From the NCBI RefSeq assembly GCF_003967195.1, contig NZ_AP018725.1, positions 744,001-808,000 on the forward strand: a stretch of DNA of 64,000 nucleotides, in the 5' to 3' direction. Within the stretch, counting starts at the first letter, position 1, and each line of letters begins with the position of its first letter. Of the stretch, positions 8,073 to 45,285 are shown in pieces. The notes below the pieces were generated by a model. The model ran no database searches and had not been told where the DNA came from. It saw only the letters and a program-made list of their open reading frames with translations. The DNA is from Sulfuriflexus mobilis. Lineage in GTDB: Bacteria > Pseudomonadota > Gammaproteobacteria > AKS1. A program made the position numbers and the translations under genes.

Positions 8073-8094
8073 ATAATATCGAGTGAGCAGCATA

Positions 8095-8670
8095 ATGAAT
8101 AAAAAAGATTTTCTAAGCCCACCCAATATTGTCAGTCTTGTGCGTATTGTTATGTCACCGGTTCTTTTGTGGCTGGCATGGCATCAAGAACCCTTTTTAT
8201 ACATGCTGGCATTATTGTTTACCCTGTTTACGGATGTGCTGGATGGGTTCCTGGCGAGGACATTAAACCAGGTGACCAAGTTGGGTGCTCGCCTGGATAG
8301 TTGGGGTGACTTTATTATTTACACAACCCTGGTCGTTGCTGCATGGTGGCTCTGGCCCGAGATCATTATTGAGGAAATAATAGCGGTGCTGGCGATTATT
8401 ATCAGCTTCGCCATACCTGTAGCTATAGGCCTGATTAAATTCAGAACCTTAACCAGCTACCATACCTGGGCGGTAAAAATTGCCGTGTTTATAACAATCG
8501 TGTCGTATGTCGTGACTTTTATGGACTGGGCGCGCTGGCCTATTTACGTGGCGGCAACGGTCGCGGTGCTGGCGGCGATTGAGGAAATTGCGATCACCCT
8601 GGTTATGCGCCATGAACATGCAGATGTGCGATCAATCTGGCATGCCTTGAAATATTATCGCGATAATTAA
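8095..8670 (+). CDS. CDP-alcohol phosphatidyltransferase family protein, 191 aa
   Basis: Carries the CDP-alcohol phosphatidyltransferase motif DG-x2-AR-x8-G-x3-D-x3-D: DVLDGFLARTLNQVTKLGARLDSWGD. These integral membrane enzymes swap CMP on a CDP-lipid for an alcohol such as glycerol phosphate, serine or inositol phosphate. About five to six membrane helices are visible. I start it at the ATG 8095 (MNKKDFLSPPNIVS); a GTG at 8083 is in frame but its sequence GTGAG looks more like the ribosome-binding site. It forms a probable two-gene unit with the CarS-like gene upstream. The acceptor alcohol cannot be told from sequence. Confidence 0.85.
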   Translation: MNKKDFLSPPNIVSLVRIVMSPVLLWLAWHQEPFLYMLALLFTLFTDVLDGFLARTLNQVTKLGARLDSWGDFIIYTTLVVAAWWLWPEIIIEEIIAVLAIIISFAIPVAIGLIKFRTLTSYHTWAVKIAVFITIVSYVVTFMDWARWPIYVAATVAVLAAIEEIAITLVMRHEHADVRSIWHALKYYRDN

Positions 8671-8812: not shown

Positions 8813-9733
8813 ATGAAACACACTCTTCAGGTATGTTTGTTGCTTTTTATCGGCGGTTTCCCGTTGTGGTTAACGGCGACGGAACTCTATTTTGTGGATG
8901 CCCACAGTCAGGTGGACCACGAGGTTGGGGACCTGGCGTTAATCCTGCGGCGTATGGATGCGGCCGGTGTTGACAAGACGATCCTGGCAAGCCGCGGCAG
9001 ACGTCCGCATGCAGACATTGCCAACATGGCGGCAATGTACCCCGAGCGTATTGTTGCCGCCATCCGCACCAAGGGTGGTGTCTATCGGCAGAATAACCCG
9101 AAGTTTTATAAAAAACTGCGTAGACGGGTAAATAGCGGCAACTACTCCGCGATGGCGGAGGTGCTTATTTATCATGCGCAAAAGGGCAACAAGGCCGAAG
9201 AGGTAGATGTGCCATTGACCGACCCGAGGGTGGATGCCGTATTGCAGGCCTGTCTTGAGAAGGGCTGGCCAATGTACCTGCATATTGAGTTTGCCTCACT
9301 GCATGGGGACAAGCGCAGGCAAACCATGCAGGCACTGGAGCGGTTTGTGGATGCGCAGCCGGCGCATCCCTTTGTGCTGACCCACATGGGGCAGTTGAAT
9401 AGTGATGAGGCAGGGCCACTGCTGGAGCGGCATAATAATCTGTATTTTATGGTGGCCCACACCAATCCGGTGATCACCCGCCAGTCAAACCAGCCGTGGA
9501 CGGAGATGTTCTCCGGCGATTTTCTTAAAGATGACTGGAAGCAGTTGATGCGCCAATATCCGGAGCGCTTTATCTTTGCCCTGGATAATGTTTGGCAGCG
9601 GCACTGGCAGGAATTTTATATCCCGCAAATGGCTGTGTGGCGCAAGGCCTTGGCAGAATTGCCTGATGAGGTGGCTCACAAGTTTGCCCACGGCAATGCC
9701 GAACGGTTATGGCGGTTGTCGCCACAGCGTTAA
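8813..9733 (+). CDS. exported amidohydrolase-2-like TIM-barrel protein, 306 aa
   Basis: Begins with a Sec signal peptide (VCLLLFIGGFPLWLTATE) and continues as a metal-dependent-hydrolase-like barrel: strand 1 FVDAHSQVD, a central MYLHIEF, LTHMGQ after it, and FALDNVW near the C-terminus. The usual first metal motif HxH is HSQ here, with the second histidine missing, while the later H and D positions seem kept. The enzyme may use fewer metals, or may be a non-catalytic barrel. A perfect TTGACA (8724-8729) lies upstream but the -10 is poor. Substrate unknown. Confidence 0.75.
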   Translation: MKHTLQVCLLLFIGGFPLWLTATELYFVDAHSQVDHEVGDLALILRRMDAAGVDKTILASRGRRPHADIANMAAMYPERIVAAIRTKGGVYRQNNPKFYKKLRRRVNSGNYSAMAEVLIYHAQKGNKAEEVDVPLTDPRVDAVLQACLEKGWPMYLHIEFASLHGDKRRQTMQALERFVDAQPAHPFVLTHMGQLNSDEAGPLLERHNNLYFMVAHTNPVITRQSNQPWTEMFSGDFLKDDWKQLMRQYPERFIFALDNVWQRHWQEFYIPQMAVWRKALAELPDEVAHKFAHGNAERLWRLSPQR

Positions 9734-9846: not shown

Positions 9847-10947
9847 ATGTCAAAACGATTGATTATCGCCATGATATTACTGGTTATTATCACCGTGGCT
9901 GTGGCTGGATATATATATTGGCAGGCTGTACAGCGACAAGCCGCGAAACCACAGGGTTTTCCGCCTGCCATGATTTCGGCGACCGAGGTTAGACCGGAAA
10001 ACTGGCAACCCTCGCTGCAATCCGTCGGCTCACTGGTGGCAACCAATGGCATTAATGTGAGTACTGAAGTTAATGGGATTGTCAGTGAAGTTGTCTTTAA
10101 ATCCGGACAACCGATTGAGCAGGGTCAGGTGCTTATCCGCCTCGATGATGCCGTCGACGAGGCAGCATTGGAGGCCCTGCGTGCAGAGCGTAAACTAACA
10201 CAAGTGCAGTTCCATCGTGCCAAGGACCTGCTAAAAAAACGCGTCACCTCAAAATCGGAATACGACGAGGCAGAGGCACGCTACGACGCCGCAACGGCCC
10301 GCTTAAAACAGCAGGAAGCGATCATAAAGCGGAAAGTGATTCGCGCACCGTTTACCGGTTTGGCCGGGATACGGCAGGTTGACCTTGGGCAGTTTATCGA
10401 AGCGGGTGACCCAATCGTGAGCCTGCAGGCATTGAATCCCATCTATGTTGATTATACCTTGCCGGAGCGCCACCTGACCCGGATTAAAACCGCCCAGGTG
10501 GTGAAGGTTCACCTGGATGCCGTGCCGAACCAGATTTTTAGCGGCGAAGTCAGTGCCGTAAATTCTGGTATTGATATCGGTACGCGCACGTTGAAAGTCC
10601 GCGCCACATTGGACAATACCGACAGTATCATGCGTCCCGGTATGTTCGCGCAGGTGGAGACCATCACCGATGCGCCTCAGCCGGTGTTGACGCTGCCGTA
10701 TACGGCGATCAGTTTTAATACTTACGGTAATTTTGTGTTTGTCATCAACAAGGATGATAAAGGCATGCTCACGGTCAAGCGTACACCGGTTGAAACAGGT
10801 GAGACGCGTAATGGGCGTGTCGTTATCAAGGGCCTGCAGGTGGGTACACAGGTTGTACGCACCGGCCTGGTGAAGCTGCGCGATGGTATCCCGGTGAAAA
10901 TTGATAACCAGGTGGAACTCAACGATGCAGAGATAACGGGCGAATGA
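9847..10947 (+). CDS. RND efflux periplasmic adaptor (membrane fusion protein), 366 aa
   Basis: Periplasmic adaptor joining an inner-membrane RND pump to an outer-membrane channel. An N-terminal anchor (IIAMILLVIITVAVAGYIYW) is followed by the lipoyl-type half motif VVFKSGQPIEQGQVLIRLDD, an alpha-hairpin of about 60 residues (ALEALRAERKLTQVQFHRAKDLLK), then IRAPFTGLAGIRQVDLGQ and the beta-barrel domain with MRPGMFAQVE. This arrangement is that of MexH/AcrA-type proteins. Its last codons overlap the permease start by 4 bases. Substrate unknown. Confidence 0.92.
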   Translation: MSKRLIIAMILLVIITVAVAGYIYWQAVQRQAAKPQGFPPAMISATEVRPENWQPSLQSVGSLVATNGINVSTEVNGIVSEVVFKSGQPIEQGQVLIRLDDAVDEAALEALRAERKLTQVQFHRAKDLLKKRVTSKSEYDEAEARYDAATARLKQQEAIIKRKVIRAPFTGLAGIRQVDLGQFIEAGDPIVSLQALNPIYVDYTLPERHLTRIKTAQVVKVHLDAVPNQIFSGEVSAVNSGIDIGTRTLKVRATLDNTDSIMRPGMFAQVETITDAPQPVLTLPYTAISFNTYGNFVFVINKDDKGMLTVKRTPVETGETRNGRVVIKGLQVGTQVVRTGLVKLRDGIPVKIDNQVELNDAEITGE

Positions 10948-14156: not shown

Positions 14157-14185
14157 TTGCTAAACGGGCGGGATTCTCCTATAGT
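14157..14185 (+). promoter_or_regulatory. promoter and long leader of the cold-shock gene
   Basis: TTGCTA, a 17-base spacer and TATAGT. Transcription from here would give an untranslated leader of roughly 120 bases before the cold-shock ATG, in keeping with the long structured leaders known for cspA-type genes. Confidence 0.5.
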
Positions 14186-14312
14186 TCATGTAGCTACAGA
14201 TTTTGTTATCGGCAATTTTGGTTGTTGCCTTAGTGTTACCCCCCTGATTCCTCGTTTCATTACCTGTATGCAGCACTCTAATATTGTTTAATTTATTCAA
14301 GGTACAAAGATT

Positions 14313-14513
14313 ATGGCTACAGGTACAGTAAAGTGGTTTAACGAATCGAAAGGTTTTGGTTTTATTTCTCAGGATGACGGCGGCGATGATGTATTCGTAC
14401 ATTTCAACGCAATCCAGGGCTCGGGCTTCAAAACCCTTGCTGAAGGCCAAGCGGTCACCTATGAAATTGAAAAGGGTCCTAAGGGCCTGCAGGCAGCTAA
14501 TGTTACTGCCTAA
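14313..14513 (+). CDS. cold-shock protein, CspA family, 66 aa
   Basis: A complete single cold-shock domain. The RNP1 KGFGFISQ (residues 14-21) and RNP2 DVFVHF (residues 29-34) are intact, after the usual TGTVKWFNE start. It binds single-stranded RNA/DNA as an RNA chaperone in the cytoplasm. A strong terminator follows. A candidate promoter about 120 bases upstream leaves a long leader. The gene is followed by an RRM protein, another single-strand RNA binder. Confidence 0.96.
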
Positions 14514-14541
14514 GCAAGACCTCATCGGATAAACCGATACC

Positions 14542-14573
14542 AAGAACCCCGCTCCGGCGGGGTTCTTTTTTTG
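14542..14573 (+). terminator. rho-independent terminator after the cold-shock gene
   Basis: An 11-bp perfect stem (AAGAACCCCGC / GCGGGGTTCTT) with a TCCG tetraloop and a run of seven T. Confidence 0.95.
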
Positions 14574-20383: not shown

Positions 20384-20412
20384 TTGACTTGCCGGCAGAA
20401 TCACAATACTGT
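20384..20412 (+). promoter_or_regulatory. sigma70-like promoter of the cobalamin operon
   Basis: TTGACT, a 17-base spacer and TACTGT, placed so that transcription would begin about 20419, just before the cobalamin aptamer. Confidence 0.6.
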
Positions 20413-20424
20413 CAGCAAAGTTGC

Positions 20425-20622
20425 TTCAGGTGTTCGATGGGTATCCACCCAGAGAATGAAACGGGAAGCCGGTGCGTACTGGTAATAATCAGCACAATCC
20501 CGGCACTGCCCCCGCAACGGTAAGCGAGTTTTGGCGGATCATACAGTCACTGCGTTTCGACGTGGGAAGGCGATCCGACCAGGTAGACATCTACCACTTG
20601 CGAGTCCGGAGACCGGCCTGAA
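20425..20622 (+). promoter_or_regulatory. cobalamin (B12) riboswitch
   Basis: The leader of btuB carries the conserved elements of the adenosylcobalamin/cobalamin aptamer in order: GGGAAGCCGGTGCG at about 20463, CACTGCCCCCGCAACGG ending near 20520, and the B12 box variant GAGTCCGGAGACCGGCC at about 20602-20618. Binding of cobalamin is expected to reduce expression of the operon. The 137-base expression platform before the btuB ATG holds a short hairpin (ACAGG...CCTGT) followed 8 bases later by T-rich sequence, which could be a terminator. Control of initiation is equally possible. Confidence 0.93.
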
Positions 20623-20759
20623 GCCATTGGTTCGCATTGCGGAGGGCGATGTTGCGGCTGACAGGTCGTTTTGCCTGTTTCCGTCTGATTTTTTCCTCTG
20701 TAGATGCCTATATGTCACTGATTTGCGCGCGGGTGAGCGTGCCAGAGGAAATTTAAATA

Positions 20760-29791: not shown

Positions 29792-29907
29792 ATTTTCTCC
29801 AATGTAAGCTTAGCCACTTATGTTTGAAAAGGCTTGGCAGCAGTAATTCAATCGGCACTCGTCAAAAATCACGAAAAACATCCCGGTTCAGTCATAAAGA
29901 GTTATTT

Positions 29908-29942
29908 ATTTTACCCTCGTGGAAGATCACTGTTCAACGAAA
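29908..29942. repeat. 35-bp repeat, left copy
   Basis: Matches 32326-32360 on the same strand at 31 of 35 positions; the four differences are all transitions. The core CCTCGTGGAAGATC is identical. The two copies bracket the MFS and methyltransferase genes. The 268-base gap around this copy holds no gene. Confidence 0.75.
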
Positions 29943-31381: not shown

Positions 31382-32161
31382 TCAGGCTTCGATACCCTTT
31401 GATTCTAAAAACGAATCCGGGACATCCGCTTTTTTTCTGCCTGCAATGGCAAAATAATAAAGAGGCTCACCGTCAATAGATAATCTGTGTCGATAGCGTT
31501 CAATATAATAAACATCAAGATATTTTGAGAAGGTTAGCTCTCTTATCATTTTAGAGAAACCAGAATCATCTGTTGTATCAAAGAAACTGTCTTTAATATT
31601 AAACGCGACCCAGCCTTCACTTCTGATAATATTAAAAGCTTCAATGAAGGCTTTCACAGGGATGTCGCCAAAACCAAGTGCCGCAACCGTGACCATACAG
31701 TCACATTGCCATGAAACAATATCTTCTTTTTTATCAGCATCCAGAGAAGTGAAATCTTCGACGTAGTAGGCATCATAGACACCGGGTCTGTCTCGAACGG
31801 TTGCGTCGTATGCTTCATCAATAATATCGACGCCAATCAAGCGCGAGACACCGTGTTTTTTAAGTTCCTCACCCATCATGCCATTACCGGCACCTAAATC
31901 CAGTACCCGAAGTTCAGAGAAATTATCCTGAGACTGTTTTACTGCCGCTTCGAGTATAGCAGTCACTTTAACAGGAGATGAACATTTAAGACGGTCATAA
32001 AATAACTGCTCATACAACCCGGGGATTTTATAAATTTCATTGTAGTCGTGAAATCTGATTTTTTGTTGTTGATTCGTTCCCTGAAGATAAAAATAGGACT
32101 GGTCCTGGTTTAAATCGGATGATTCTGCTTTCGGGAACTGTATACGATGTCGTTTCTGCAT
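31382..32161 (-). CDS. class I SAM-dependent methyltransferase, 259 aa
   Basis: Rossmann-fold methyltransferase. The SAM-binding glycine motif is VLDLGAGNGMMGEEL, followed by the acidic end of strand 2 in LIGVDIIDEAYD and a later DCMVTVAALGFGDIP strand-4 region. The N-terminal 60 residues are not recognised. The closest broad types are methyltransferases acting on small molecules; no substrate can be named. The ATG has AGGA upstream. It lies with the MFS gene inside the pair of 35-bp direct repeats. Confidence 0.8.
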   Translation of the reverse strand: MQKRHRIQFPKAESSDLNQDQSYFYLQGTNQQQKIRFHDYNEIYKIPGLYEQLFYDRLKCSSPVKVTAILEAAVKQSQDNFSELRVLDLGAGNGMMGEELKKHGVSRLIGVDIIDEAYDATVRDRPGVYDAYYVEDFTSLDADKKEDIVSWQCDCMVTVAALGFGDIPVKAFIEAFNIIRSEGWVAFNIKDSFFDTTDDSGFSKMIRELTFSKYLDVYYIERYRHRLSIDGEPLYYFAIAGRKKADVPDSFLESKGIEA

Positions 32162-32325
32162 TATTTCCTCAGTGTGGCTTAAATATAATTTACTATGAAG
32201 TGATGTCTCAGGGTAACAGTTTCAGAGAGGGACTTGGGGAAATATCAGACAATCAGAGGATAAAATGCCTGTTTTTTTTATTAAAAAGGGGTCTGGGCCT
32301 GTGTGATCCCTCTTTTATTCGCTTC

Positions 32326-32360
32326 ATTTTGTCCTCGTGGAAGATCGCTGTTCAGCGAAA
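32326..32360. repeat. 35-bp repeat, right copy
   Basis: Direct repeat of 29908-29942 with four transitions. This copy contains a perfect small dyad CGCTG-TT-CAGCG that is degenerate in the left copy. It lies about 45 bases from the attC-like palindrome at 32406-32499. Nothing else was recognised in 32162-32405. Confidence 0.75.
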
Positions 32361-32405
32361 GCAGTCGTTGGCAAAATAGTTTTATTAGGCTGAGTTCGGC
32401 TGCGG

Positions 32406-32499
32406 CTTCAACGTTGCAAATAACCGGATGTCAAAAGCAGAGTGGAGCGATAGCGAAACCGCGTTTTTTGGGTGTCCGTGTTTATTTGCATTGTTAGGT
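32406..32499 (-). other. attC-like recombination site (integron cassette type)
   Basis: A 94-base imperfect palindrome directly after the stop of the minus-strand gene at 32512. Read on the minus strand it opens ACCTAAC, a perfect RYYYAAC core, and ends GTTGAAG, six of seven to GTTRRRY. The arms pair through TGCAAATAA (32489-32481) and TTATTTGCA (32423-32415), and further in through CACGGACACC against ACATCCGG. Length, ends and position just 3' of a gene are those of integron attC sites. No integrase is in the window. Confidence 0.55.
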
Positions 32500-32511
32500 T
32501 TATTTGGCAGT

Positions 32512-32877
32512 CTATTTAAGTGGTAATACAAAGACAAGACTGACGAACAACATGCCTATTGCAGGTAAGGCAACTTCAAACAGGAATAAAAATATAAACA
32601 TATTGGGGCTCTTCTTTCGATAGTATCTTTTACGTCTGCCAGTTATATAGCCACGTTCCAAATTTATCAAACCCCAAAATATTAATGATAGTGCAATTGA
32701 TAGCCCGAAGTATGCGCCAGTATATTTTTTAATAATATTGTTATCGGAATTTCCGAAATACGCGATACACGCAAATCCAGATATAAATAGTATCAATGCG
32801 ATCCAGTGTTTTACTGTCCATTTATTATTCGCATAATATTTATTAATTTTCTCTTGAACTTCTTGATTATTATCCAT
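32512..32877 (-). CDS. AT-rich hypothetical membrane protein, 121 aa
   Basis: Not recognised. Three hydrophobic segments are visible at about residues 25-41, 54-71 and 93-119, separated by a very basic loop (TGRRKRYYRKKS), so probably a small inner-membrane protein. Codon use is markedly AT-rich (many AAT, ATA, TTT) compared with the GC-rich housekeeping genes around, which suggests acquisition. The ATG at 32877 lacks a strong ribosome-binding site, as many cassette genes do. An attC-like site follows 12 bases after the stop. Confidence 0.6.
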   Translation of the reverse strand: MDNNQEVQEKINKYYANNKWTVKHWIALILFISGFACIAYFGNSDNNIIKKYTGAYFGLSIALSLIFWGLINLERGYITGRRKRYYRKKSPNMFIFLFLFEVALPAIGMLFVSLVFVLPLK

Positions 32878-32979
32878 TGTCAAATCTACCGATCAAAGTG
32901 ACCGAGCCCGAAAAAGCAAGTGAAAAGCCGCTTTTGAGAGTTCGGCAGGTTTGAAAAATCTGCGTAGTTAAACGACTTA

Positions 32980-33335
32980 TTATGTTTTTTTATTAAGTAT
33001 TTTATTCGCCCAGTCATTATGAACTATGATTGAGTTACCGAAGCCGGCAGAAACAAGAAGGTCTCTATAGTCAGTTTTGCCCCGTTCAATAGCTTTATTT
33101 AACTTTTTAATTAAAGTTTTTGCTATTGTTAAGATTGCTAAGCAAAAACGTTCATATGTTTCTAGGTGCGATTCTTTTGAAAAAACTCCGATAGATATTC
33201 ACAGTAATCTTGGAGTTGGGCAACGACTGATGCACTTTCATTTGGAAAATATTTCACTGCTATTGCTTTCAATTTATCGCTGACTAATTCATTTCTTTTT
33301 AAACATAACAGATGATAATACGGCTCCGAATAACA
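32980..33335 (-). pseudogene. frameshifted hypothetical gene in AT-rich DNA
   Basis: Two overlapping frames look like halves of one protein. The upstream frame (33335-33162) reads NELVSDKLKAIAVKYF and VAQLQDYCEYLS; the other (33198-32980) continues with FSKESHLETYERF, IKKLNKAIERGKTDYRD and VHNDWANKILNKK. A one-base slip within 33162-33198 would join them. Neither half has a plausible start; an 18-codon ATG frame just upstream (ending VMFKKK) may be the true beginning, with a second slip in an A-run. Function unknown. Sequencing error is possible. Confidence 0.5.
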
Positions 33336-33634
33336 TTAACAGCATTCACTTATATAGCCCCGTTAATTAATATTAATCAAAAGTTTATGGACTAATTACA
33401 TGAATAGCAAATCAGGTCCCCGAAATGCAGAATGCAAAGAAATATAGAGTCATAAATGTCTGCTTCGGGTCGACTCCAGCCTATCATTATATGTAGTCCA
33501 GCGTCCCTTTTCAGTGGTGCCCGGCTTTGTAATGGGTGATTATGGCTAGTCGAAACTGGGCTTGCACGCTGAGACTATCTATCCATTCATATCTACACTA
33601 CGATTATCCATCATTTCATAACCATCAATCAGCC
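33336..33634. other. intergenic, no gene seen
   Basis: About 300 bases moving from AT-rich to normal composition. I see no convincing frame, hairpin terminator or promoter. It probably marks the right edge of the accessory stretch. Confidence 0.35.
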
Positions 33635-34066
33635 ATGTCTTATAAACGTCCTGAATCTGTCCTCGTCGTGATCTATACCCGGGATGCCCAGGTGCTCATG
33701 CTCGAGCGTGCCGCGCCGCGCGGCTTTTGGCAGTCGGTGACCGGCAGCCTGCGCGAGGGGGAGTCGGCCCTGGCAGCGGCCCGGCGTGAACTCGAGGAGG
33801 AGACGGGTCTGGTCGGCGAGCCCGTCGAGACCGGTCTGACAAATACTTTCTTGATCGCCCCGGCCTGGCGTGCCCGTTATGCCCCGGCGGTGACACATAA
33901 CCATGAGACCGTGTTTGCCCTGCAACTGGATAGTGCCCGCGAGGTGCGACTGAACCCGGACGAGCACGTGGCACAGCGCTGGTTGTCGCGCGAGCAGGCC
34001 GCGGCGCAGGCCAGTTCGTCGAGCAACCGTGAGGCGATCCTGGCCCTCGTGCCGGACCGGCTGTAG
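33635..34066 (+). CDS. nudB: NUDIX hydrolase, dihydroneopterin triphosphate pyrophosphatase-like, 143 aa
   Basis: The Nudix box GSLREGESALAAARRELEEETGL (G-x5-E-x7-REUXEEXGU) is complete near residues 36-58. The opening YKRPESVLVVIYTRDAQVLML and the later FALQLDSAREVRLNPDEH match NudB, which removes pyrophosphate from dihydroneopterin triphosphate in folate synthesis. In many gammaproteobacteria nudB lies between aspS and yebC-ruvC, as it does here relative to yebC, which supports the call. The ATG 33635 is used; an in-frame upstream extension to 33536 looks non-coding. Confidence 0.88.
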   Translation: MSYKRPESVLVVIYTRDAQVLMLERAAPRGFWQSVTGSLREGESALAAARRELEEETGLVGEPVETGLTNTFLIAPAWRARYAPAVTHNHETVFALQLDSAREVRLNPDEHVAQRWLSREQAAAQASSSSNREAILALVPDRL

Positions 34067-45209: not shown

Positions 45210-45285
45210 GGGCCGTTAGCTCAGTTGGTAGAGCACCGGACTTTTAATCCGATGGTCGCGCGTTCGAATCGCGCACGGCCCACCA
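45210..45285 (+). tRNA. tRNA-Lys (anticodon TTT)
   Basis: A complete 76-base cloverleaf: acceptor GGGCCGT pairs with ACGGCCC followed by A and an encoded CCA; D-arm GCTCAGTTGGTAGAGC; anticodon loop CTTTTAA with anticodon TTT at 45243-45245; T-arm GCGCG-TTCGAAT-CGCGC. Confidence 0.97.

Follow-up and report, generated by a model that had tools for sequence, protein, structure and literature searches.

The window analysed here is a 64,000-nucleotide stretch of the Sulfuriflexus mobilis chromosome (NZ_AP018725.1, positions 744,001 to 808,000), to which positions refer unless given as genome positions. It holds a 2.2 kb AT-rich block, 31382-33640, with a GC content of 0.33-0.41 between flanks of 0.54-0.60. 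Read on the minus strand, the block consists of a pseudogene, a degenerate palindromic site (attC2), a small membrane gene, an intact-looking palindromic site (attC1), a repeat, and a methyltransferase gene (Table 1). A preliminary description of this DNA had singled out the membrane gene as AT-rich and unlike its neighbors, which agrees with its GC content of 0.325, and had placed a 94-base palindrome 12 bases past its stop codon, exactly where attC1 starts. The GC content of attC1 alone is 0.45.

Table 1. Features of the AT-rich block (window positions) and integrase-less attC loci elsewhere in the chromosome (genome positions)
Feature	Position	Strand	Description
SAM-dependent methyltransferase-like gene	31382..32161	minus	GC 0.40
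38-nt repeat	32323..32360		87% identical to 29905-29942
attC1 (putative)	32406..32499	minus	94-base imperfect palindrome 3' of the 121-codon gene
attC1 R'	32406-32412	minus	GTTGAAG; GTTRRRY 6/7
attC1 L'	32415-32423	minus	TTATTTGCA; then spacer AC
attC1 L''	from 32482-32490 onward	minus	preceded by spacer AA, followed by variable loop
attC1 R''	32493-32499	minus	ACCTAAC; RYYYAAC 7/7
121-codon membrane gene	32512..32877	minus	ATG 32877, stop 32512; small hydrophobic protein, about three membrane segments (by eye)
attC2 (putative)	32884..32985	minus	degenerate attC of the preceding cassette
Pseudogene	32992..33308	minus	frameshifted gene of the preceding cassette, beyond attC2
124-nt repeat	33358..33481		far edge of the AT-rich block
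attC loci without integrase	~179-185, 300, 475-479, 660-663, 899, 908, 1407 kb
attC loci without integrase, continued	~1438, 1976, 2157, 2368, 2530, 2669 kb

On the minus strand, from 32499 to 32406, attC1 reads ACCTAAC-AA-TGCAAATAA...TTATTTGCA-AC-GTTGAAG. The perfect R'' box, the R' box matching at six of seven positions, and the 9-base paired arm proposed for this palindrome were all recovered, with 9/9 pairs between L'' and L', a mismatched AA/AC spacer, and both core triplets (AAC and GTT) intact. Two bases of the L'' side stay unpaired, and extrahelical bases on this side are a feature of known attCs.

Fold energy alone set attC1 only moderately apart from chance, with a bottom-strand z-score of -1.84 and equally good folds in 8 of 200 shuffles. 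We built a generic attC covariance model (R1) from 11 unrelated array attCs of S. mobilis and related genomes, leaving the window out. Since RNAalifold returned no structure on the MAFFT alignment, the only pairs included in this model were those of the R boxes. With it, attC1 scored 17.3 bits (E 0.39 over 246 kb) and was the top match of the local 4.5 kb (E 0.007), where it and 32831-32985 were the two best matches. Simpler scans were less informative: a two-block position matrix scored attC1 at 19.9 compared with maxima of 20-30 in shuffled windows, a crude stem scan did not separate it from shuffled sequence, and strict RYYYAAC..GTTRRRY consensus scans recovered no real array and were abandoned. 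A position-matrix match at 8090-8155 was set aside because its score merely equaled that of the best shuffled window. An Rfam scan of the 64-kb window found nothing at the attC1 site; its matches were a cobalamin riboswitch (20411-20635), a cspA thermoregulator (14168-14571), and a tRNA (45210-45282).

The identification of the palindrome as a putative attC rests on homology, covariation, and context rather than on the generic-model score. Among 369 gammaproteobacterial genomes searched, attC1 has a relative in genome G271 (80% over 92 nt, E 6.6e-15), another in G143 (72%) that is one of four tandem attCs (locus L067), a third in G048 (71%) that closes an array of several attCs (L021), and a match of 90% over its first 30 nt in G244; shorter matches occur in additional genomes of the sample. 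When seven relatives were aligned, 84.6% of the cells in the stem were paired, compared with 24-41% when the stem was slid by 1-3 columns. Five pairs had changed on both sides, including one from A-T to C-G (columns 20/94) and one from C-G to T-A (24/91), and the covariation score was matched by 1 of 500 shuffles. Thus, homology and covariation together mark attC1 as more than a chance palindrome.

On the far side of the membrane gene lies attC2, a site absent from the preliminary description. It is 85% identical over 94 nt (E 4.9e-23) to an attC at 574-675 of locus L020 in genome G046, which is itself flanked by two other attCs, and it scored 15.3 bits with our generic covariance model. Both of its crossover triplets are mutated, since R'' reads ACATAAT (AAC to AAT) and R' reads GGTAGAT (GTT to GGT). 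With attC1 in the same orientation 12 nt behind the gene and the mutated attC2 ahead of it, the membrane gene is a bounded cassette, so the earlier reading of an attC behind a cassette gene is strengthened by homology to array attCs, by covariation, and by a second site bounding the gene. With both core triplets of attC2 gone, automated detection would probably report at most one attC at this locus.

The membrane gene had also been called an orphan. This holds with respect to Pfam, where a search with its product returned no family, but not entirely, since a scan of genome contigs identified one relative, the only one among named genomes, in a Sulfuriflexus MAG (G002, 67-68% at the amino acid level). 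The G002 copy is located at an array end, between mutM and MOSC-GGT-coaD-rsmD, with just a weak palindrome 3' of it. Between mutM and MOSC, S. mobilis has a diguanylate cyclase gene without any cassette (257-259 kb of the genome), and its copy of the membrane gene is found at 776 kb; the gene therefore appears to have changed place between G002 and S. mobilis. The dN/dS of 0.37 between the two copies indicates that purifying selection acted on the membrane protein during some or all of the time since they diverged.

The pseudogene beyond attC2 survives as pieces (...ELVSDKLKAIAVKYFP... and ...KTDYRDLLVSAGFGNSIIVHNDWANKILN), and a 127-aa open frame in genome G360 is a distant relative. At the other end of the block, the methyltransferase gene has a 79%-identical relative in G004 that is situated between attC sites (L017). 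A search for an attC behind the methyltransferase gene in the window found none; judging by its relative, this is probably a third former cassette gene. Interspersed repeat sequence lies between attC1 and the methyltransferase gene and includes the 38-nt repeat, whose two direct copies, 2.4 kb apart, flank the MFS transporter and methyltransferase genes. The 124-nt repeat is 86% identical to genome positions 1434136-1434260, which adjoin another attC-bearing locus. An interspersed repeat with the pattern GTCTGCTT..GGGTCG..CTCCAGCC occurs at 33447-33506 and 33358-33481 of the window and at L053:6137-6261, 9036-9062 and 10651-10676, L058:9332-9365, and L062:6731-6771; it adjoins several attC loci, is also present in G002, and may be either a marker of cassette-block edges or an unrelated palindromic repeat.

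The genome of S. mobilis aks1 (AP018725) comprises 3,111,340 bases in one contig (PMC6397845). A search for intI, which the preliminary description had suggested, found a pair of integron integrase genes, each adjoining an array, at genome positions 236.9 and 2300.1 kb; they match TIGR02249 with 457 and 421 bits against a cut-off of 265. They are 539 kb and 1.5 Mb from the block, consistent with the earlier view of a cassette far from an integrase. Both are broken: each contains the same 50-nt insert, GTCGCTCCCGGCGTCCTGCCTxxCGCGACACTAGTACATCCTGTACGTCG (48/50 identical), immediately ahead of the TAT in the YTHV motif with the catalytic tyrosine, at L010:18048-19037 and at its counterpart at 236.9 kb (L008/L009). 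The insert thus causes both frames to be lost before the catalytic tyrosine, and with both frames shifted the genome has no functional IntI of the kind that an active integron system requires.

The search for further sites, likewise suggested beforehand, yielded 33 attC matches in the genome at E <= 0.1 with our covariance model. Outside the two integron arrays, these fall at 13 further loci without an integrase, and the matches at all 13 are attC-like in appearance upon inspection. The loci lie beside small, mostly AT-rich genes amid ordinary chromosomal genes, and several are runs of three to six attCs. With the window locus included, the chromosome has about 14 integrase-less attC places. 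Other gammaproteobacteria in the sample also carry attCs on several contigs (in a comparison limited to 12 scored candidates per genome), indicating that such scattering is not limited to S. mobilis. Near-identical two-ORF transposases are present within both integron arrays (L009:3228-4450 and L010:15063-16285), and 345-aa transposases with a common N-terminus, which we take to be IS110-like, lie beside two integrase-less attC loci (L049:7309-8346 and L055:2344-3381). An attC-like palindrome between the integrase at 236.9 kb and the first cassette (L009:1140-1198) fits the consensus better in the opposite orientation.

Taken together, the sequence features make it very probable that the palindrome is an attC and that the block is the decaying remnant of a cassette array without an integrase, similar to a CALIN. 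CALINs are clusters of attC sites lacking an integron integrase and are thought to be degraded integrons (IntegronFinder, PMC9024848). Like a CALIN, the block combines attCs and cassette-like genes in a shared orientation with no integrase nearby; measured against the definition of at least two attCs without a nearby integrase, it has two attCs by homology, one of which lacks both core triplets, and the nearest intI 539 kb away. It differs from a CALIN in the loss of both triplets from its second attC and in belonging to a set of about 14 such places in a chromosome that also carries two integrons. In Xanthomonas, seven distinct non-ilvD CALIN loci were reported across all well-sampled species when clusters of at least two attCs were counted (PMC12444791). 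The S. mobilis clusters resemble these in lying away from an integron elsewhere in the genome, whereas the S. mobilis count of 14 places comes from a single genome and includes many with one recognizable attC.

In such a history, IntI would once have excised or inserted these cassettes as single-stranded attC hairpins, and they would have come to their present place either as part of a broken-up integron or through insertion by an integrase at a site other than attI. The block may have been mobile in the past; the loss of both crossover triplets in attC2 and the frameshifts ahead of the catalytic tyrosine in both integrases would make it immobile now. With attC2 dead, the membrane-gene cassette is not expected to be excised by attC x attC recombination.

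The mode of arrival is the subject of the strongest alternative, which leaves the attC identity unaffected and which we consider possible but somewhat doubtful: IntI may have inserted a lone cassette or a short run of cassettes at a chromosomal non-attI (attG-type) site, and the locus would never have belonged to an integron. Experiments have shown that cassettes can insert at chromosomal attG sites (Loot et al. 2024, Nat Microbiol 9:228, as cited in PMC11023631 and PMC12444791), and the process as cited would place cassettes at scattered chromosomal sites, as found here for attC blocks spread over 14 chromosomal places. The block showed no noticeable remnant of an integrase or attI, and the deviation of R' (GTTGAAG) from GTTRRRY would be expected if its 3' half were genomic. 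The cited process is an experimental one, whereas an attG insertion in S. mobilis is hypothetical, and the block has more than one cassette; a single insertion would not yield the at least two, and probably three, cassettes of the same orientation present here. Furthermore, no empty site defines the junction, since synteny around nudB/ruvC in three congeners revealed no empty site and the gene order upstream of nudB differs. Of the two origins that the preliminary description had offered, a single stray insertion is thus disfavored, and an array fragment without integrase is the better option because of the upstream attC2, the further decayed gene, and the methyltransferase that is a cassette gene elsewhere.

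Alternatives that deny the attC identity fare far worse. A role as transcription terminator or as leader of neighboring genes, a possibility raised at the outset, would fit a hairpin directly 3' of a stop codon, but it is very improbable given a length of 94 nt with a mismatched spacer and extra bases, the absence of a T run after either arm, and relatives that stand behind unrelated genes in cassette arrays, with R'' and R' core letters kept in nearly all seven aligned. An interspersed S. mobilis repeat unrelated to integrons is just as improbable an origin: other short repeats do lie to either side of the palindrome, but the genome has a single copy of it, and its relatives are array attCs in other families. 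Chance, for which the fold z-score of just -1.8 and the 17.3 bits might speak, can be dismissed in view of 80% full-length identity to a site in another genome, compensatory changes, and a second attC across the gene.

The array remnant favored here is known biology; the locus stands out by its decayed state and by how many such places a single chromosome carries. Stray attCs that have lost their core triplets, and are probably missed by standard callers, can be recovered by homology. One free-living gammaproteobacterium carries at least 14 integrase-less cassette places alongside two integrons with broken integrases, making the S. mobilis genome a natural test case for cassette scattering by non-attI insertion versus integron break-up. 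A more far-reaching scenario, which we regard as unlikely, is that integrase insertion outside attI scattered cassettes chromosome-wide until one and the same mobile 50-nt element entered both integrase genes beside the catalytic tyrosine codon and shut the process down, leaving a fossil record.

The 50-nt insert is a member of an interspersed gammaproteobacterial element that is usually 51 nt long and has two hairpins and the core TCGCTCCCGGCGTCCTGCCT. Its 20-nt core was found with at most one mismatch in 26 of 369 genomes, with up to 90 copies in one. The insert was not found in phages or plasmids, nor its core in viral contigs, and a literature search for the core or its peptide returned no paper containing either. 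The element is apparently an undescribed protein-coding insert element, and its behavior resembles that of Rickettsia palindromic elements. In many of the 28 loci read in other genomes (L081-L108), it lies in frame inside long open frames. An integron integrase of genome G287 (L088) carries a 51-nt copy at the same place as the S. mobilis integrases. Ten element-bearing frames were compared with Pfam, and their matches included a class I tRNA synthetase (probably ValRS), a ClpB-like AAA protein, apolipoprotein N-acyltransferase (lnt), topoisomerase I (topA), HsdM, an HsdR-like subunit, a class V aminotransferase, and HrpB.
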